Of a stretch of DNA of 64,000 bases, positions 38,136-47,715 are shown one piece after another. The stretch comes from Tetradesmus obliquus (Eukaryota; Chlorophyta; Chlorophyceae; Sphaeropleales; Scenedesmaceae): NCBI GenBank assembly GCA_030272155.1, contig CP126193.1, positions 4,030,001 to 4,094,000 of the forward strand, written 5' to 3'. The stretch's first letter is position 1. Each line of letters begins with the position of its first letter. The notes under the pieces were generated by a model. The model was not told the DNA's origin and made no database searches. It saw nothing but the letters and a program-made list of their open reading frames with translations. Position numbers and translations under genes: made by a program.

Positions 38136-39574
38136 CAACACATGATCACAGGTCAACAGCATGCTCCTGATCACATGCACACCTGGTGCAATGCAGCGTA
38201 ATCCAGAAAAGCTCAAGCACACCGTGTGCTGGTTCAACCAAAATTTGCAAGGGGTGAGGCCTGGCTGCCAGGCTGTACAAACCAAGTTTGCCTGCACACT
38301 TGACACAGCTTGAGATCTTTTGTCCGACAAAGGACAGAGAAAGGAAGGCTTCCTGCAAATGAGGATGTAATATAGATGCACAACGTTGTGTGGGAGTTGT
38401 CAGTGTCAAGACTGGCTGCAGACACCGTTTACTCACACCCAACTCAGGTGATACCACCGTCACCACAAACCTCAGACATACTGCTACATTACTGCTTCTC
38501 ATATACTACTCACACGCGACCTTGGCTGAACCCAGAAAGATGTGAATTATGTTTCTAAATTGAGACAAGACGATTCAAGTGAGTAGGTCATGCACTCTGT
38601 GCACACGTGGACCTCACACACCCCGGGTGATGGGCCGTCAATAGATCATGTGGTCTAGTCCACATGCAGACATTGTGCATGCCGAGCAACACATCAACCG
38701 GTTAGGTTTCATACGCCTTCTGCCAAGTTTCACCTAAGGATTCCTGTTCAACATCCATCCAACACGCAGTATGCCACTCTGCCAGTGATAAACTGTATTG
38801 CTTTTTGCACTCACATGCTTGGCTACTCTGTAGCACTGGATTTGTTACCTTGTGACATTCGACGGCCACATCGTCTGCACACGCTTGACAGCGTTGCAAC
38901 ATACTTCCTTTCTCTTCTTCACACCTGCCAACTCACGGCATTTCATAACATGTAGCTGTAACTGTTACGCTGACTCAGCATAACACTGTTATAACAGCTG
39001 AACCTAGAAGCGCAGTGCCTCAGGCTGACTCTTCATCACAGCAGGCGTACACACAGAAGCTGCAACACCTTTCCATCCTTACTCTGGCTGTGGTAGATCA
39101 CACCACAAAGCTTCAGTGAAGTCTATCAGTCAGCGCTGTGTGTAGCCTACACCTTCACCCCCTCCCAAAAGAGAAGATTGAGGCACAAGCAAGCCATCAC
39201 AAGCCAACACTAGCACCAAACAACCGACAGGCAATGCAAACAAAGCGTGCCAACACAAACAATCCCGAAACAAGCACAGAGCCACACCAACCAGGGACAT
39301 GCAGATGCAGCACAGCGGTGGCAACAATCAGCACTCACATGAGCCAGTAACCAAGCACCACTCAAAACAGCAGAAACTCGAACAAACACCCAACAGTGTG
39401 TCACTGCGAGTGTGCTGGCTATAGGCAAGCACCGAGCATGGCATGTGTTACTCAGGGTTCTGCAACCACAGAGCAGTGCACAGCAACAGCAGAGCGCTGC
39501 GAATCACAGACTACATTATGTAGCACTGGATTTATTACCACCGCTGCGAGCATGTAAGCTGCAGCCCTCCAAAC

Positions 39575-41124
39575 TCAAGACGCTGCTAGAGCAGCACGCA
39601 CAGAGCGCTTGTCCAGGTACCTGGCCAGATTGCTTATGTGCCGCGTGAACGCAGCAGCATCACGAAAACCTGTACTGCCAGTCGTAAGCAGAACTACGCC
39701 ATTGTCACGCACTTCCAGCACACGGAAAGGCCCACGCACACCATCTCCTAGGTTGGTAACAGGGCCTGAAACCACCTCAAGCACAAGATCGCCTTTATCA
39801 AAAGTAACAGAGCTGTCAACAGTGCGGCGGGCACTACGCAGGGGCCAAGCACGCGCATTCCGCTGAAACTGCTGCTTTATCCTGACAAATACATCCTGAT
39901 CAACAGCCGCCAGCTGCTGACGCAACTGCGCTGCATGCAAAGCCGGATGCTCACATTCAAACAACTCAGGCCAAACCCACACTCTAGCAGATGCTGCTAC
40001 TGCCAGCACATTACGTGCCAAAGGTAACACAGGCACAGGCTGTCTGTCAAACACCATCTCCTGCGGCGAAATGCCCAAGGTTGCATGTACACGAGCCCAG
40101 TACTGCTGCCGCATCACAGGAACACTCTGCACCCAATGAATCGGATGAGAGTTCACATGCCGCTCCAGCATGCTTTTGAAAGAGCCCACCAACTGCTCCG
40201 CCACACCATTAGCAGCAGGATGACAAGCTGACGTTTGAACATGCTTGATGCCCAAACGTGCCAGCAAATGACCAAACTGAACCTCAAACTCAGTACCATT
40301 GTCACTGGTGACATGGCTGGGCACGAAGTACCGGCAGATCCAACTGTAGTAGAAAGCCCGAGCAACCGAAGCAGCTGTCTTATCATAAATAATAGCAAAT
40401 TCTGCAGCCTTTGTAAAGTAATCGATTATAACTACCACCCAAGCCTTGAACACCTGCTCCTTTGCTTCAGGCAAATACAACCGTCCATATACATCAGCAC
40501 AAGGAGTCACAAAAGGGCCACACAAGTCGATATGCACATGCTCAAACGGCCCCCGAACGACTGGCTCCTGCATGGGGAAAGGTGCAGGCAGTGCCAGCCG
40601 ACGGCGCTGACACGCATCACACTGAGCCAGAAACAGCCGAACATCACCAGGCAAGCCCCGCCAGTGGAAATGCTGTTGTAAATAAGCACATGTCTGCTGG
40701 ACCCCAGCATGTCCCAAAGCATCATGCATACTGCGCACCAGATCCCAGCGGTAGGACACAGGAGGGCAGCACAACCACACAGGATTAGCGCCTTTCACAT
40801 GCCGTAACACCATCGACCAGTCCTGCAAAGTGCGGTGAGGCCGCAGAGCAGTAGCTCTGTGCCGTATGGCGCGTACTCTGCTGCGATTCAAACCTTGTAG
40901 CACACCATCATCCATACCACTGCGCACATAAGCCAGCAAAAATCATCCACGTGAGGATCTCCAGGTGCATACAGCAGCACTGTATCCGGATCGCACAGCT
41001 CAGAAACATTGGAAAACCAAGGGTCACATCCAGGGCAAAACCAGTCACCACTGGGAACAGTAGACATGGGTGGCATGACACAGCGCAGGTGAAAGCACCG
41101 ATCGCACCCAGAGCAGATTGCCAT
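39575..41124 (-). mobile_element. Fossil LTR-retrotransposon fragment, Ty3/Gypsy-like: PHD finger and integrase
   Basis: Two recognisable parts read on the minus strand. One is a PHD-type zinc finger (CSGCDRCFHLRC and GDWFCPGCD, about 41110-41000). The other is an integrase (39575-40939) with an HHCC zinc domain (HDALGHAG to CDACQRRR), a catalytic core around HIDLCGPF, TSDNGTEF and GVAEQLVGSFKS, and a C-terminal domain. I see no gag, protease or reverse transcriptase part in the window, so the element is a broken fragment and probably old. A 35-bp direct repeat with one mismatch brackets it (39481-39515 and 41138-41172). A 21-bp direct repeat (38829 and 39519) may be LTR debris. Domestication of the open integrase part is possible but not shown. 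Confidence 0.75.
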
Positions 41125-41380
41125 GTTATCAAAACCACAGCAACAGCAGAGCGCTGCAAATCACAGACTACAACTCCACCATCAACAACAAGTTGAGGTC
41201 AACTCGTACAATAACACAACATACATTGGCAATCAACAGTTTGCTACGTGCATCACGAAACAGCTGGACAAAGGATCACACATACAGTGACCTGCCGCAG
41301 GACAGCAACATTGATGATGTGCGCAGGTGTGGTGTACACATGTGGCGGCCTTGCCTTGTCCTTGGGTGTCAGCAGCCGCC

Positions 41381-44300
41381 TTACCGGCCGCAGCAAGTGA
41401 AGCCGATGCGGTACTGGCGAGCAGGGTTGTTGGTCTGCAGCTGCCACTGTGTCATCACCTTGCCTCCAGGGCAAGAGGGGCGGTGCCTGCAGCAACGTCA
41501 AAGCAAGCATACGTGTACAGAAGTTGGCTGCAAATTGGATGATGTGGTTTGTGCAACAACATACTTGCGGTCAGCATATGTGTCTTTTGCAACCTGATCA
41601 TCAGCCGGCAGCTGTTGCATGCAATCATGGAAAGCTGAATTTCGCGAAATCGATCGAGTGTGTTGTTGCCCAACCCGGCAGTTGTGCCGAGTCCTTTTGT
41701 AGCGACAGTAGCAAGTACCCATCCACAGCAGCGCAGCTACTGCTTGATGCTCACCTGTCGAGGAAGTTCACTTGGCCATTTCCGTTGTCGTTCCAGGGCG
41801 TTGCGAGCTGCTCACACGTGCCAACGTTGAGGCTGGCTGGGGCGCAGAAGTACTCAAAGGCGATAGTGTTGCCACTGGGACGCACCAGGCGCCAGCGCTG
41901 CAGCACTTGGTTGGCCGGGCAAGCAATGTTGTGCCTGCGGTTGGCGGACAAGAGGCACAGCATGTCATCACCTGCTGCTTGGTTGCCAGAGCAGCAGCAG
42001 CAGCAGTTGCGCATCATGTTGACATGAGCAATGCCTGCTACCGCTTCCGGCTGAGGCAGGGAGCTTGAACGTTGCGCGGCCGCGTCAAGACAACAGCATG
42101 CCAGCTTGCTGCAGAATGGCCTCAGTCCTCGGCGGTGTATACTAGTATTGGGGGCACTGCATCCGGCACTCTTTGCCCCGACACACATTAGTGAGCTCAC
42201 AGCTCACCTGTCAAAGAAGACGGTGTTGCCGCCTCCCCAGTCGTTGGTTGGTGTGACGTAGCGCACGGCAGCAGCGCCAGTGTTGGCCCGGAAGCCATCG
42301 CATTGGTAGCGCACCCTCATCTGGTTAGGATTGTAGCGCATTTCGACCTGGAAAGATTGCATCGCTTGAAGGGCGTTGCAGAACTCTCCAGCGTTGTGCC
42401 TGCAGGCAGGCAGGCAGAAAGGCACACATGACGGCCAACGCCAGCATGGGTTCGCCTGACATGGTTGCAGCATTATTGGGTGCAGTCATGCGGCCTCTGT
42501 GTGCACGCGCACACAGCAGAAGACTGCTTGCAGAGCAATGCTGTGCATTCCTGTAGGCGCTTAACACAAAACCCCAAAGGATATCAATATCAAGCAACGC
42601 AACTGCTGCTCTGTCAGCAGCTGTGGTGCATGGCCTGCCTCATCCCTCGCTGCCGCTACAAGAGCATTGTCAACGCATGATCTGCAAATCAATAGACTAT
42701 TCGGTTGCAAAGGCAGCACACCTGTCCAGCCAGACATTCTTGTAGCCATCGCCAGAGCCGGCATCATTCCATGGCGTGAAACTGCCTGCACAGCAAATGC
42801 ATATGCACAGTAAACATGGCCACAGCACACATTACTGCCTGTGTTTGTGCTTGCCGGTAGAACGATGATGATGATGCAGCTGTGCTACACAGCTGACTCA
42901 CAGTGCATGAGGCAGCCCACATGCTTTGTGATTTTGAAACTGCTGGGCAACCACATACACATCAGGCTTCATCTTGTGCTGAGGAAGGCAAATGCAACAG
43001 CGCATCAACAGACAGGTACACGCGGCATCGCAATATTACAACTTGCCAATTGCAATGTTGCGCATTGCAATGTTGCGCATCATGATTCAGGTCTGATTTT
43101 GCAGCATGGCACGACCGCGGCTGCCATAACTAGTGGCACCATGCTGCTGCAGCACTGTAGGTCCCACCTCCGGCCCAGCTCAGCATATCCCAGAAGCGGT
43201 TGGTTGTGATCTGCGTACATAGTTGTACATAGAGCAGCAGCAGCACGTCAATAGGCACCATACAACTAAATCAACGCAACATGTGACAGTCTTCCGTGCG
43301 GCCAGACATGCATAATTGCCGGGCCGCACGCATAGTGACCATCTCTACAACTGTTCAAAGTGAACGGTTTGACAGCAGAAAGGGGCATGAGAGCGTCCAA
43401 AGAGTGTGCAACCCTACAACTGTGCAAACTGAACGGTTAAGAAGCGGAAAGGGGCGTGAGAGCGCCCAGAGAGTGTCCACAAGCTTTTGCTAAAATGCAC
43501 CACAGCTGCCCTTGAGTTCTGAGACAGCAACTTCAAAGTTCCAGATCCAACTTATATCTTGGGAGGAATTGCCGATATGCAGATCTGGCGCAGCTGCTCT
43601 CATGTTGTACAAAACATCACCAATGCAGAACAAGCCAAAGGTGTTGCTCATCACCTGCATGAACCCATTGGAGCTGTCGGAGCTTCCGTGTGACAGCACT
43701 GCACGGACTTGGTTGTTGTCGTTCTGCCACATCCCAGAGCCAGACTGGCCCCCCATGGTGTCACAGTCCCTGAAACAAATAAACAGCAACACCAGCCACG
43801 GTATGGCCACAGTTATGCAGGCATGAAACAGCAGCAGCAGCAGGCGGCACATTCAGTATATATATCTGCTGAATTGAGTCTGGTTCAACAGCAAGAACAA
43901 CCCTTGGTCATGTATTCTGTCCTTCTGGCCATGTTGCTGCAGCTTCATCAGATTAGACATCACATTGTGCCAATGCCTTTGTGTGCCTGCATGGTACCGC
44001 CTCATGTTTAGAACTGATGTACTGTTCTGACATGCACGCTGCCAGCTGTGCTAGATGCCTTGCACTGCCTTTTCGCATGTCGCTGGCATTATTGACACTT
44101 GTTCAATCTAGTTGCATGACAGTGCGTGCCAGGCCGTCGCAGCAGCTGTGAGCACCTGGTGTTGGTGATAAAGTCAGAGGGGTTGTTGTCAGAGATGGAG
44201 CACTGCGCCCGCCACATCGTGCCACCTGGCTTGTCGCCTGGGTACCTGCAGCACACAGGTGCACACGCCACGCGAGTACAAACATGGTCAGTGACACCTG

Positions 44301-46151
44301 GGCTGTAACAATGATTGATGGTTCAGTGTCAGCACCTCGCATGGTACCAGTGACAGTGGTGGGCATGCTGCAGCGTTCTAGCTGTACAGCTATCACATGT
44401 GATACACTTCAGTGAGGTGCTGGGCAGGCTGAATGGCTGGCTGGCTGTGAGGCCCCGCTTCCATGTTGCTCACCATCATATATATACGATTATGTAACTC
44501 ACCGGGCGTCCAGCTTTACAGCTGAGGGGTATGCGGGCCTACATGATACACTCATGCATCTCGACGCCCCTAGACAGCAAGGCCCGATGTAAGCACCCTC
44601 TATGTGTGCGGATAGCTGGTGACAGTCAGCACATACACCCCAGACTCCATCACACCCCTGTTATAAAGAGGCACGTACTTCTGTACGTTACTCACCCGGC
44701 AGTGGTGACAGGGATCTGGTTGAAGACGTCGCTCGCTGCCAGGCCCAGCCATCCAACATTGGGCGCAGAGGACAGGCGGACCACTGCCAGGTCGTACCGG
44801 AACTGATCTATGGGGCAGCCGTTTGGATCGTTGCAGCCATTGTTGATCCACTCCTGGTATGTGGTGACCCAGTCCCAGCTGATGGTGCCATAAGGGCGAC
44901 CTGATCCATCTGTGGCAGCAGCAACAATGACAACAACAAGACAGACCAAACAAAGGTCGCATCCGGATCTATGTTCCACCCCCAAACAGTATGTTCAACC
45001 TCCGAACAGTGTATGGTGAGCCGTGCGGCTCAGTGTTGCATGATGGCTGTCAGCATGCAAACCTCAGCATGCAGCATGCAGCATGCAGCAGTTCTCATGC
45101 GCTGACAACCTTGCATGTCTCTGTTCTTGCCAACACATGGATCTCCCTTCCACTGCGTCGCGGCACGGGTCATGTTGAAACACTGAAACAACGGTTTCGG
45201 ACACGACAGCATGCGTGGGGCATGGCATGCCTTCTGGTTTGCTACGACATACCCTCACAACGTCAATCTTTCAGTACTTGATTCGCCACGGCTGCGCACC
45301 TGCACCAGGTGAGAAGCGAATCTCAGATGCCCAGGCCCCTCCCCTGCCGCTGTGCACGCAGTGACCAGCTGTGATGAAGGATGTGGGGGACATCATGGCG
45401 CCAGAGCAGCCGAAGCTCCTGCCTTGGACAGTGAACTGGACCAAACCCACAGTCCTCCTGCAGGCATTGCATCAGGCGTGAGAAGGGCTGGGCCATGAGG
45501 CGCTGGATCCCGTGAATGTTGCTGCATGATGCCCGTGGCAGAGATGAGATAGCAACTGCGCATTCGCATGCAGAGTGACGGTGTATGTATTTAGTGATGA
45601 CAGCAATAAGCAACAGATGGTGTGCTGCCGAAGTAGCTTGTTTTGGTGTGGCTGCCACACTGCCATACGTGTACAGCAACGCTGGCAATGAACCACAGCA
45701 GTCGGAACACCAACATCGGGTCGGACACGCAACGTAGCTGAGGTATCACTGCTAGCAGCACTGTGAAGGGAGTCAAGCATTGGTGCAGAGTCTAGCGCAT
45801 GGCATCCACTCACCAGGGGTAAGTGTTGGTTGGGCTCACGCGCACACGGTCATCTGCAGGCAACAGCAGGCACAGCATACGTTGCTACAACAATACCCAC
45901 AACAGCTTCGTGCAATACTGGCAGCAGGCGCACCAGCTGCTGCAGTACAGTGGCCCTTGTGGCTGGGGTGCAAGCAAATCTGCGTTCATTCTTATTGCAG
46001 AGGTAAGTGAAGTTTGCAAGCTGTGTTTGACGAAGGGTGTGCAAGAAGTCCAATGCATTTGCCTCACCAGACCCAAAGACTGCCTGACCAGACACGAGGT
46101 CGAGCAGCTTGCGCCCCAGGCTGGCAACTGTGGGCTCAGGCACTGCTGCCT

Positions 46152-46183
<32 letters not shown>

Positions 46184-47715
46184 GCGGCTCCGCTCTCTTC
46201 CACAACACTAGCTGCAGAGGCGTTGGTGCCACCGCGCAGCAGAGGAGGCATGACGTCTGGGTTGTAGGCAGGCATGATAGCAGCAGCAGCAGCGGAGGCT
46301 CCAGCTGCAGTCACCTCAGCCTGTTGCACAACAGACTTGAGGAGAGCTGCAAGGGGGGACCCGACGGTAGTGGTGGCGTACATGAAGCCAGTTGATGGGT
46401 CAAAGCGCACCGCAGCAGAGTTGTGGCGTGGTGCGCCAGTAGATGCACGGCCAGCGCTGCAAGGGCAGACATATACTGTGGTCAGTGGTTTAGACACATG
46501 GGCGTTAGGTGACTGCTGGATGGGGCAAGACACTGTACAGGAACAGATTTGAATACCCACCGAACACTGGACAGCATGTCGCATTCCAATTGCTTTGCAA
46601 AGGCATAAGACATGCTGGTGGGGCTGGGCAGAACATTCTGCAGTATGCACGGGCAGCAGTAGCATGTCTGGGCTTTTGTCGAGAGTTCCTGCTGTTTGTT
46701 ACAGTGCAATGCAGTGCAGTGCAGTGCAGTGCAGTGCAGTGCACTCCAGTGCCTTCATGCAAAGATGTTCACATCTGTATCTGCAGGTGCAAAAGCCTTC
46801 AGGTGTGCTTACGTGGCCCTCAGCTGCCGTGGCTTGAAGTTGGGGTCAGTCTTAGCCTGGCCAATGAACGAGAAGCCCTCACTCTTGAACCTACAGGCAG
46901 TGGCAACAGCGTTATAACAGTTGCGTTATGTTACATTTGAGCAGGCGACCCTCCTTGCCTGCCAAGCGTCAACTTAACCTGCTACTGTGCTGGAATTTGC
47001 AGTCAACACAACAGACAGACATCTGCACAACCGCTCCATTTGACCAGCTTGCAGCCCTTACTGCACACGAATGTACAGCTGTGCACAAATGTGCAGCTGT
47101 TGCTGCAGCCACAGGCATGCTGATCCCCAGGCTCAACCGCTGCAACTGCCCTCACCTCTGCATCGTCTCAAGGTCAACTGTCGTCTTTTGCGCAGCACCA
47201 CGTTGGGCGGGGTTGACAGGCGCGAAGTTGCTGCCCTCGCGGGGCCTGCAGGCACGCTTCCTGGCCACTGCCACGCCCTGGCACACGGCCAGGCAGCTGC
47301 TCTGGTACGTGATGCCATCAGCACCGCAGACAGGGCTGACCTCGCTCAGATCACAAGGTTCAGGGCAGGTTGCTGCAGTAGAGATGGAGCGACAAGCGGC
47401 GAGCGATAGTCACCGGTCGTGTGCTTTGCGCACAGCTTCACGTATGCGTACTAGGGCTGTTGCTACTGCAGCGCACACTTCCTGCAAAAACATGTACTGT
47501 TGCTGCAAGCTCATTACCAAACATGAAGCAGAACGTGCAGCGACAGGCGAGTGTCAACATGCCATGCGTGGGACTGCCGGTGTTTCAGCCGGTTCACTTC
47601 CGCCAGTGCAACGCAACTCACCGGAGCTTTCTTGTGCATATGCATTAGCACATATGAGACCAGCCAGGAGCACCAGCAAGCTGGCGTTCCTGACGAAGCA
47701 CGCGTGATTCCACAT
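41381..47715 (-). CDS. Secreted Kazal - trypsin-like protease - Cys-repeat protein
   Basis: Minus-strand exons: 47715-47622, 47372-47156, 46890-46813, 46456-45897, 45853-45814, 45457-45306, 44909-44696, 44245-44156, 43769-43655, 43210-43168, 42785-42722, 42399-42208, 41934-41755, 41486-41381; 714 residues, all phases consistent. Signal peptide at 1-27 (ASLLVLLAGLICANAYA). Kazal domain at about 33-75 (CPEPCDLSEVSPVCGADG, then YQSSCLAVC). An Ala-rich linker region follows. The S1 protease has His362 (ITAGHC), Asp420 (RYDLAVVRL) and Ser491 (GGQSGSG). Its last helix (ITTNRFWDMLSWAG) joins Cys/aromatic repeats of about 60 residues that end in FFDRHN or FLDRH; two full units are each one phase 2-2 exon. 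Likely extracellular or cell-wall. The biological substrate and the repeat family are unknown. A donor-like GGTAAG overlaps the stop, so the C-terminus may extend. Confidence 0.8.
43345..43482. repeat. 69-bp tandem duplication in a protease-gene intron
   Basis: Two diverged units start at 43345 and 43414 (CTACAACTG). They lie in the intron between protease exons 9 and 10 of the coding model. Confidence 0.7.
46704..46743. repeat. (GTGCA)n pentamer run
   Basis: About seven AGTGC units in an intron of the protease gene. Confidence 0.8.

Follow-up and report, generated by a model that had tools for sequence, protein, structure and literature searches.

A predicted secreted V8-type protease gene of Tetradesmus obliquus with an N-terminal Kazal domain and a Cys-repeat tail

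We asked whether a single gene of the green alga Tetradesmus obliquus encodes a secreted protein that joins a Kazal domain, a trypsin-like serine protease and a tail of Cys repeats, and what the Kazal domain and the tail might do in such a protein. The gene lies in a 64,000-nucleotide (nt) stretch of contig CP126193.1 (GenBank assembly GCA_030272155.1, positions 4,030,001 to 4,094,000 of the forward strand), hereafter called the window; positions below count from its first letter. An original prediction, made from the letters of the window, had placed the gene at 41381-47715 and suggested that the protease controls itself through its Kazal domain. The gene was real, and these limits were exact: a 14-exon model ran on the minus strand from 47715 to 41381, with 1980 nt including the stop codon encoding 659 amino acids (aa). 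All 13 introns were GT-AG, and every junction was phase-consistent. The domain order was a signal peptide, a six-Cys Kazal domain, a pro-region, a V8/glutamyl-endopeptidase-like S1 protease and three related Cys units. We consider it rather probable that its product is the precursor of a secreted S1 endopeptidase of V8 type in which the Kazal domain acts as part of the pro-region and the Cys-repeat tail serves as a tether. The features of the model were as follows.

47622..47715, minus strand: exon 1, ATG and signal peptide MWNHACFVRNASLLVLLAGLICANAYA-Q, ending in phase 1 (by eye and hydrophobicity)
47156..47372, minus strand: exon 2, Kazal domain and beginning of the pro-region
47248..47367, minus strand: Kazal domain, C34-C73, C-x3-C-x8-C-x10-C-x3-C-x10-C, predicted P1 Leu40 (Pfam)
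46068..46890, minus strand: exons 3 and 4 (46890-46813 and 46456-46068), pro-region (four-copy alignment)
43168..45853, minus strand: exons 5-10, S1 protease (Pfam, PDB matches, paralogue alignment and exon-10 profile test)
45361..45363, minus strand: catalytic His305, H in 4/4 algal and 79/79 bacterial rows of the alignment
44791..44793, minus strand: catalytic Asp365, D in 4/4 algal and 79/79 bacterial rows
43742..43744, minus strand: catalytic Ser436 (GGQSGSG), S in 4/4 algal and 76/79 bacterial rows
43694..43696, minus strand: Leu452 at the S1-pocket His position, chymotrypsin 213 (alignment)
42722..42785, minus strand: exon 11, second half of a repeat exon-unit, SFTPWNDAGSGDGYKNVWLD, phase 1 after exon 10
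42208..42399, minus strand: exon 12, full repeat exon-unit, 192 nt, phase 2-2
41755..41934, minus strand: exon 13, full repeat exon-unit, 180 nt, phase 2-2
41381..41486, minus strand: exon 14, first half of a repeat unit, RHRPSCPGGKVMTQWQLQTNNPARQYRIGFTCCGR, and the stop codon

The predicted signal peptide, Kazal Cys pattern and S1 protease were all present. The signal peptide, also judged by eye, had a hydrophobic score of 3.23, and the Kazal pattern was complete (C34, C38, C47, C58, C62 and C73). A profile check for Kazal and S1 domains, which the prediction had proposed, placed both over the Pfam cut-offs: in the full protein, Kazal_2 scored 26.3 bits (cut-off 22.8), Kazal_1 23.7 bits (cut-off 21), Trypsin_2 37.2 bits (cut-off 27.6) and Trypsin 34.5 bits (cut-off 20.6), and the Kazal domain alone scored 31 bits for Kazal_2 and 27.4 bits for Kazal_1. 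The S1 domain spanned approximately aa 255, at the end of exon 4, to aa 480, its last residues coming from exon 10. Its best matches among solved structures were the alkaline serine protease 3cp7, the glutamyl endopeptidase 1p3c, the extracellular serine protease 9s74 and the V8-type proteases 1wcz and 1qy6. The catalytic His, Asp and Ser were found as predicted, but the earlier numbering (His362, Asp420 and Ser491) was off by 55-57, a shift that presumably stems from different exon calls.

The protease resembles the S1B glutamyl endopeptidases and V8 proteases (1p3c and 1qy6) in its triad and in the GYPGDK and SGS motifs. In Glu-specific enzymes, the His at chymotrypsin position 213 of the S1 pocket provides Glu specificity. 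The window protein did not show this mark of S1B Glu specificity, having Leu452 at the position, whereas the His was kept in all three paralogues described below and in 39 of the 79 bacterial rows; a His stood two positions past Leu452 in the window copy, so the pocket alignment could be off.

Related genes were sought in the 104.7 Mb genome of the alga, only the best candidates being scored in each of our searches of that genome. The S1 search gave 12 matches, four in the window gene and the others at six loci. A Kazal match lay upstream on the same strand at three of the six loci (C7:929 kb, C7:960 kb and C8:2.04 Mb); i.e., the genome holds at least three further Kazal-S1 genes. The S1 loci on C9, C13 and C15 had no partner among the 20 Kazal matches that the Kazal search gave among the candidates scored. 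We modeled the three paralogues, the C8 copy by its first three exons and protease exon only. All three have the order signal peptide, Kazal domain, pro-region and S1 protease, with the Kazal exon in phase 1-1 in 3/3. They share with the window copy this order, the phase-1 intron past the signal peptide (4/4 copies) and the catalytic residues (4/4), and differ from it in the pocket His and in having no detected tail.

As side observations, 11 of the 20 Kazal matches fell in one stretch, C12:198044-213252, which probably holds multi-Kazal genes. Between its pro-region and protease, the C8 paralogue (C8:2041001-2051000, minus strand) carried a segment of approximately 190 aa in addition to a Pro/Ala/Gln-rich stretch. 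This segment, assembled from pieces of four open reading frames (ORFs), matched no Pfam family at an expect value (E) up to 1 and nothing in the PDB at E up to 5; it looked jacalin-like by eye only.

The position of the protease among its relatives was assessed with bacterial S1 domains, of which 80 of the 179 found were taken in; the tree comprised 83 domains, i.e., the 79 bacterial ones longer than 150 aa and the four algal copies. The three paralogues grouped together (99/93), and the window copy was placed with bacteria in an open fork (85/92) and was named among the long branches. The four algal domains were united in 0% of 200 bootstrap trees; a single clade of the four was not rejected by the approximately unbiased (AU) test (p-AU 0.312). 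The S1 search in viral contigs gave seven relatives. A first Kazal motif was found in three of the four algal copies and in none of 85 relatives; a looser one was found in 4/4 algal copies, 0/80 bacterial relatives and 0/5 viral-contig relatives, and in this the algal copies depart from the bacterial relatives. One or two origins of the algal protease domain are both possible; we favor one because the Kazal domain, the pro-region and the first intron are common to the four copies.

In the model, the tail of the window copy is joined to the protease where exon 10 meets exon 11, in phase 1. An S1 profile built from the three paralogues and 79 bacterial domains scored the window protease at 207.4 bits with exon 10, 199.1 bits without it and 201.7 bits with a read-through of exon 9; i.e., exon 10 added 8.3 bits over none and 5.7 over the read-through, and 0/400 shuffles of exon 10 reached 207.4 bits. 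The profile match extended to position 224 of 225 with exon 10 and to 208 or 217 otherwise. With a profile from the three paralogues alone, the corresponding scores were 123.5, 121.0 and 121.2 bits (11/400 shuffles). The gain in the whole-domain profile makes it very likely that the protease is completed by exon 10. In addition, when scored with a codon table built from 1312 paralogue codons, the annotated frame was the best in 12 of the 14 exons, including all four tail exons and missing exons 1 and 6; the third-position guanine and cytosine (GC) content was 0.67 ahead of the tail and 0.74 within it. Phase, the exon-10 profile and codon usage support a single transcript, and one secreted gene with a Kazal domain, an S1 protease and Cys repeats, as originally predicted, is the best reading. 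An alternative exon at 42978-42921 (HKMKPDVYVVAQQFQNHKA) was rejected as out of phase with exon 10.

Several observations weigh against this reading, and some of them would suit two transcripts: one for a protease that stops at 43490 or 43130, the other for the Cys repeats, either as a gene of their own further downstream or as an isoform initiated separately. The joining of exon 10 to exon 11 depends on a single phase match, which would arise by chance in one case out of three. When exon 10 was aligned locally to the paralogue ends with no anchor, no signal emerged (2399/5000 shuffles as good). Without splicing, exon 9 would continue in an open frame of 54 codons (43654-43490, minus strand) that ends in a stop at 43490; the codon score of this read-through, -0.02, was reached by 0/414 open intron windows, which overlap one another. 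Reading on past exon 10 would lead to a stop at 43130. A TGTAA word lies at 43040, with none within 1.08 kb past the stop codon at 41381. An ATG at 43261 opens a signal-like stretch (43261-43168, minus strand) whose frame continues through exon 10 and on into the repeats; its hydrophobic score of 2.59 falls within the range of the four real signal peptides (2.39-3.23). Finally, the modeled paralogues stop after the protease, and a repeat-unit profile detected the tail in 0/3 of them, over stretches reaching 2.9-4.8 kb past the protease; the tail thus has no second example. The stop codon of the C7:960 kb copy sits in a GTGAGT word, and a longer spliced form of this paralogue is possible.

However, two transcripts have to contend with the bits that exon 10 adds to the protease profile, and unspliced exon 10 had a codon score of -0.29. 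The piece 43261-43211, ahead of exon 10, had an ordinary intron-like codon score (736/1777 open intron windows as high), and no signal-like single start exon leading into exon 11 was found in 43130-42786, where the best hydrophobic score was 1.0 (two-exon starts lay outside the search). The TGTAA word was dismissed as proof of an early end: three other introns contain it too, and only one of the three paralogues has it within 1200 nt past its stop, at 455 nt. On balance, we regard separate transcripts as unlikely. Because the exon-9 read-through is open and the ATG at 43261 is in frame, a shorter protease ending at 43490 or a repeat-only secreted isoform starting at 43261 is possible.

In the single protein that we prefer, the tail is a genuine repeat array. 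Exons 12 and 13 aligned with a score of 67 against a shuffled mean of 22.5, and 0/5000 shuffles scored as high; the same held for exons 13 and 14 and for exons 11 and 13, whereas scores as high arose in 32/5000 shuffles for exons 12 and 14 and in 43/5000 for exons 11 and 12. At the protein level, the unit TPWND...FLDRH...CP...C is present three times. Introns 11-13 share one position: each interrupts the D-R codon in phase 2, cutting at D-R/H (the slash marks the cut) in 3/3. Of the proposal that full repeats correspond to symmetric exons, the repeats themselves and the phase 2-2 of exons 12 and 13 stood; the exon edges proved to lie inside the units, at D-R/H, and the array to consist of three units. 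As the introns lie inside the units, the symmetric exons are permuted units, and duplication of one exon would still add an in-frame unit. Growth by exon duplication, as envisaged earlier, is therefore plausible, the intron position and phase being the same at 3/3 repeat junctions. We suggest that the tail was probably gained, and then enlarged by phase-2 exon duplication, in the window copy. The tail, detected only in this copy, appears to be what is new here.

We considered whether the tail could be a genuine dermatopontin domain that was taken up from another source and binds matrix as in animals. When the whole tail was compared with Pfam at E up to 5, only dermatopontin (DERM, PF14704) matched, with E 0.022 and 15.4 bits, and repeat units 2-3 matched it at E 0.024. 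The tail also has Cys spacing and a CC ending that we take to be dermatopontin-like, and the predicted structure of the exon-13 unit contains a beta hairpin at residues 9-32. However, the score is below the curated cut-off of 28.3 bits, and Pfam gave no DERM match for exon 12 plus half of exon 13, for units 1-2, for unit 2 alone or for unit 3 alone. Unit 3 alone instead matched MIB_HERC2, about as weakly (E 0.046), and the mean predicted local distance difference test (pLDDT) score of the exon-13 unit was only 59.9. Dermatopontins carry a D-R-x-W motif, which is missing from the Cys loop of the tail. We did not file the tail as dermatopontin, and consider a true dermatopontin domain quite improbable.

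Relatives of the tail were likewise sought without success. A profile search with the repeat alone, another check proposed with the prediction, returned no relative: over 141 sources, the best match of a three-unit profile outside the window gene was a bacterial locus at E 0.11, with none in six stretches of the own genome. Three protein queries of the own genome gave two weak places outside the window gene (E 0.115 and 0.573). Against solved structures, the best E for the tail was 0.61, an NCBIfam search gave one irrelevant match, and a repeat search in viral contigs gave nine pattern matches and no relative. A DERM search of the own genome gave nothing, but 14 control genomes were silent too, so it shows no absence. 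A green-algal dermatopontin was named in no title among the literature matches listed, of which the titles only were considered.

The second question was whether the Kazal domain inhibits its own protease, docking in the active site and holding the enzyme inactive until removed by cleavage. The window copy offers grounds for this: its Kazal domain has all six Cys and is followed by a long linker, and with 20 Kazal matches in the genome, inhibitory Kazal domains are plausible in this alga. In Kazal domains, P1 is the second residue past Cys2. The predicted P1 Leu of the window copy, together with the Leu in place of the pocket His, makes a hydrophobic fit conceivable. However, the predicted P1 varied among copies that keep all catalytic residues, being Leu in the window copy, Gln at C7:960 kb and Ala at C8. 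None of the copies had Glu there, although 3/4 have retained the His found in the pocket of Glu-specific enzymes. Cys2, Cys5 and the reactive loop are lost from the Kazal domain of the C7:929 kb copy (in C7:925001-934000), which still passed the Pfam cut-offs, and that of C7:960 kb scored 21.6 bits for Kazal_2, below the cut-off, and 25.9 bits for Kazal_1 (cut-off 21). The P1 comparison thus appears to argue against a conserved target of the Kazal domain.

The pro-region bears on the same question. Segments common to the four copies were F..EGF.F.GQ and AVRFDPSTGFMY; the pro-region of the window copy also contains an Ala-rich linker. A basic motif precedes the mature protease start in each copy: GRK-L in the window copy and RR-L, GRH-L and HRM-L in the paralogues, the distance from motif to mature start being some six residues longer in the window copy. 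GRK-L near the end of the pro-region is likely a processing site, and activation there would remove the Kazal domain because this domain precedes the motif. The varying P1, the loss of one loop and the position upstream of the likely activation site lead us to prefer a pro-region role; i.e., the Kazal domain is most likely part of the pro-region and not a lasting cis-inhibitor. Self-inhibition appears weakly supported, the proposed self-control found no backing across the four copies, and we hold docking in the own active site to be doubtful.

Is such a protein without precedent? The prediction had called the combination not a described family, which is wrong for its core. In Chlamydomonas, Cre06.g267750 is described as a 'V8 proteinase' that carries a Kazal domain at its N terminus and a trypsin-like domain at its C terminus, and its closest bacterial homologues have the protease domain only (PMC8643629). 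The window gene has the same features, i.e., an N-terminal Kazal domain and a C-terminal V8 domain with Kazal-free bacterial relatives, in the same order, as far as description and not sequence alignment allows a comparison. The available part of that account has no mention of C-terminal Cys repeats, and it leaves open whether Kazal inhibitors block V8 proteinase; it was the only paper found under the locus name. HtrA1, HtrA3 and HtrA4 (IGFBP-Kazal-trypsin-PDZ) likewise have a signal peptide and a Kazal domain ahead of a trypsin-like domain, and the Kazal-like part of HtrA1 was without effect on proteolysis (PMC8509474). The N-terminal domains of these three go back to one fusion in the vertebrate ancestor (PMC5823240). 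In the window protein, neither the PDZ domain of S1C HtrA proteases nor IGFBP had a Pfam match at E up to 5. The oomycete Aphanomyces has secreted proteases with an additional C-terminal binding domain; those in the available text are of other protease classes or carry other modules (PAN, CAP, CBM1 and ML), with no Kazal fusion among them (PMC10084794). That is, the Kazal-protease core is not new, being described in Chlamydomonas.

From the domain order, the intact triad, the intron phases and the paralogues, all read from the sequence, we infer secretion, cleavage, a Kazal role and tethering. The chain would be made as an inactive precursor, and removal of the signal peptide would leave the Kazal domain, pro-region, protease and Cys-repeat tail. 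A cut past the basic residue ahead of the protease would create the mature N terminus and free the Kazal domain and the pro-region together. Within the pro-region, the Kazal domain may assist folding or stability, or provide protection from or recognition by other proteases. The three-unit tail would remain on the active enzyme, where a tether to the wall, the extracellular matrix or the substrate is its most likely role. If this is one protein, a targeting tail has been added to a little-studied algal family of Kazal proteases, and the four copies, with altered P1, one degenerate Kazal domain and one tail, form a natural series for the question of inhibitor versus pro-region. Gain of a module by symmetric exons in an alga is suggested.

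A bolder extension would view the gene as a matrix-tethered cassette: a bacterial-type V8 protease, a shuffled Kazal exon (phase 1-1 in the paralogues) acting as a pro-region latch and a new tail module built from duplicated phase-2 exons, the enzyme being released and aimed at the wall at one life stage. If true, the tail would represent a new family of extracellular modules; we offer this extension as a speculative idea of low probability.

Beyond the 3' end of the gene, a multi-copy element of long terminal repeat (LTR) type occupies 38829-41172, ending approximately 209 nt beyond the stop codon, and stretches of it have copies of up to 98-99% identity at other places in the genome. An LTR-like repeat lies at approximately 38829-39515, and only its last 37 nt recur, at 41136-41172, as inferred from match limits. 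One ORF of the element looked integrase-like by eye.

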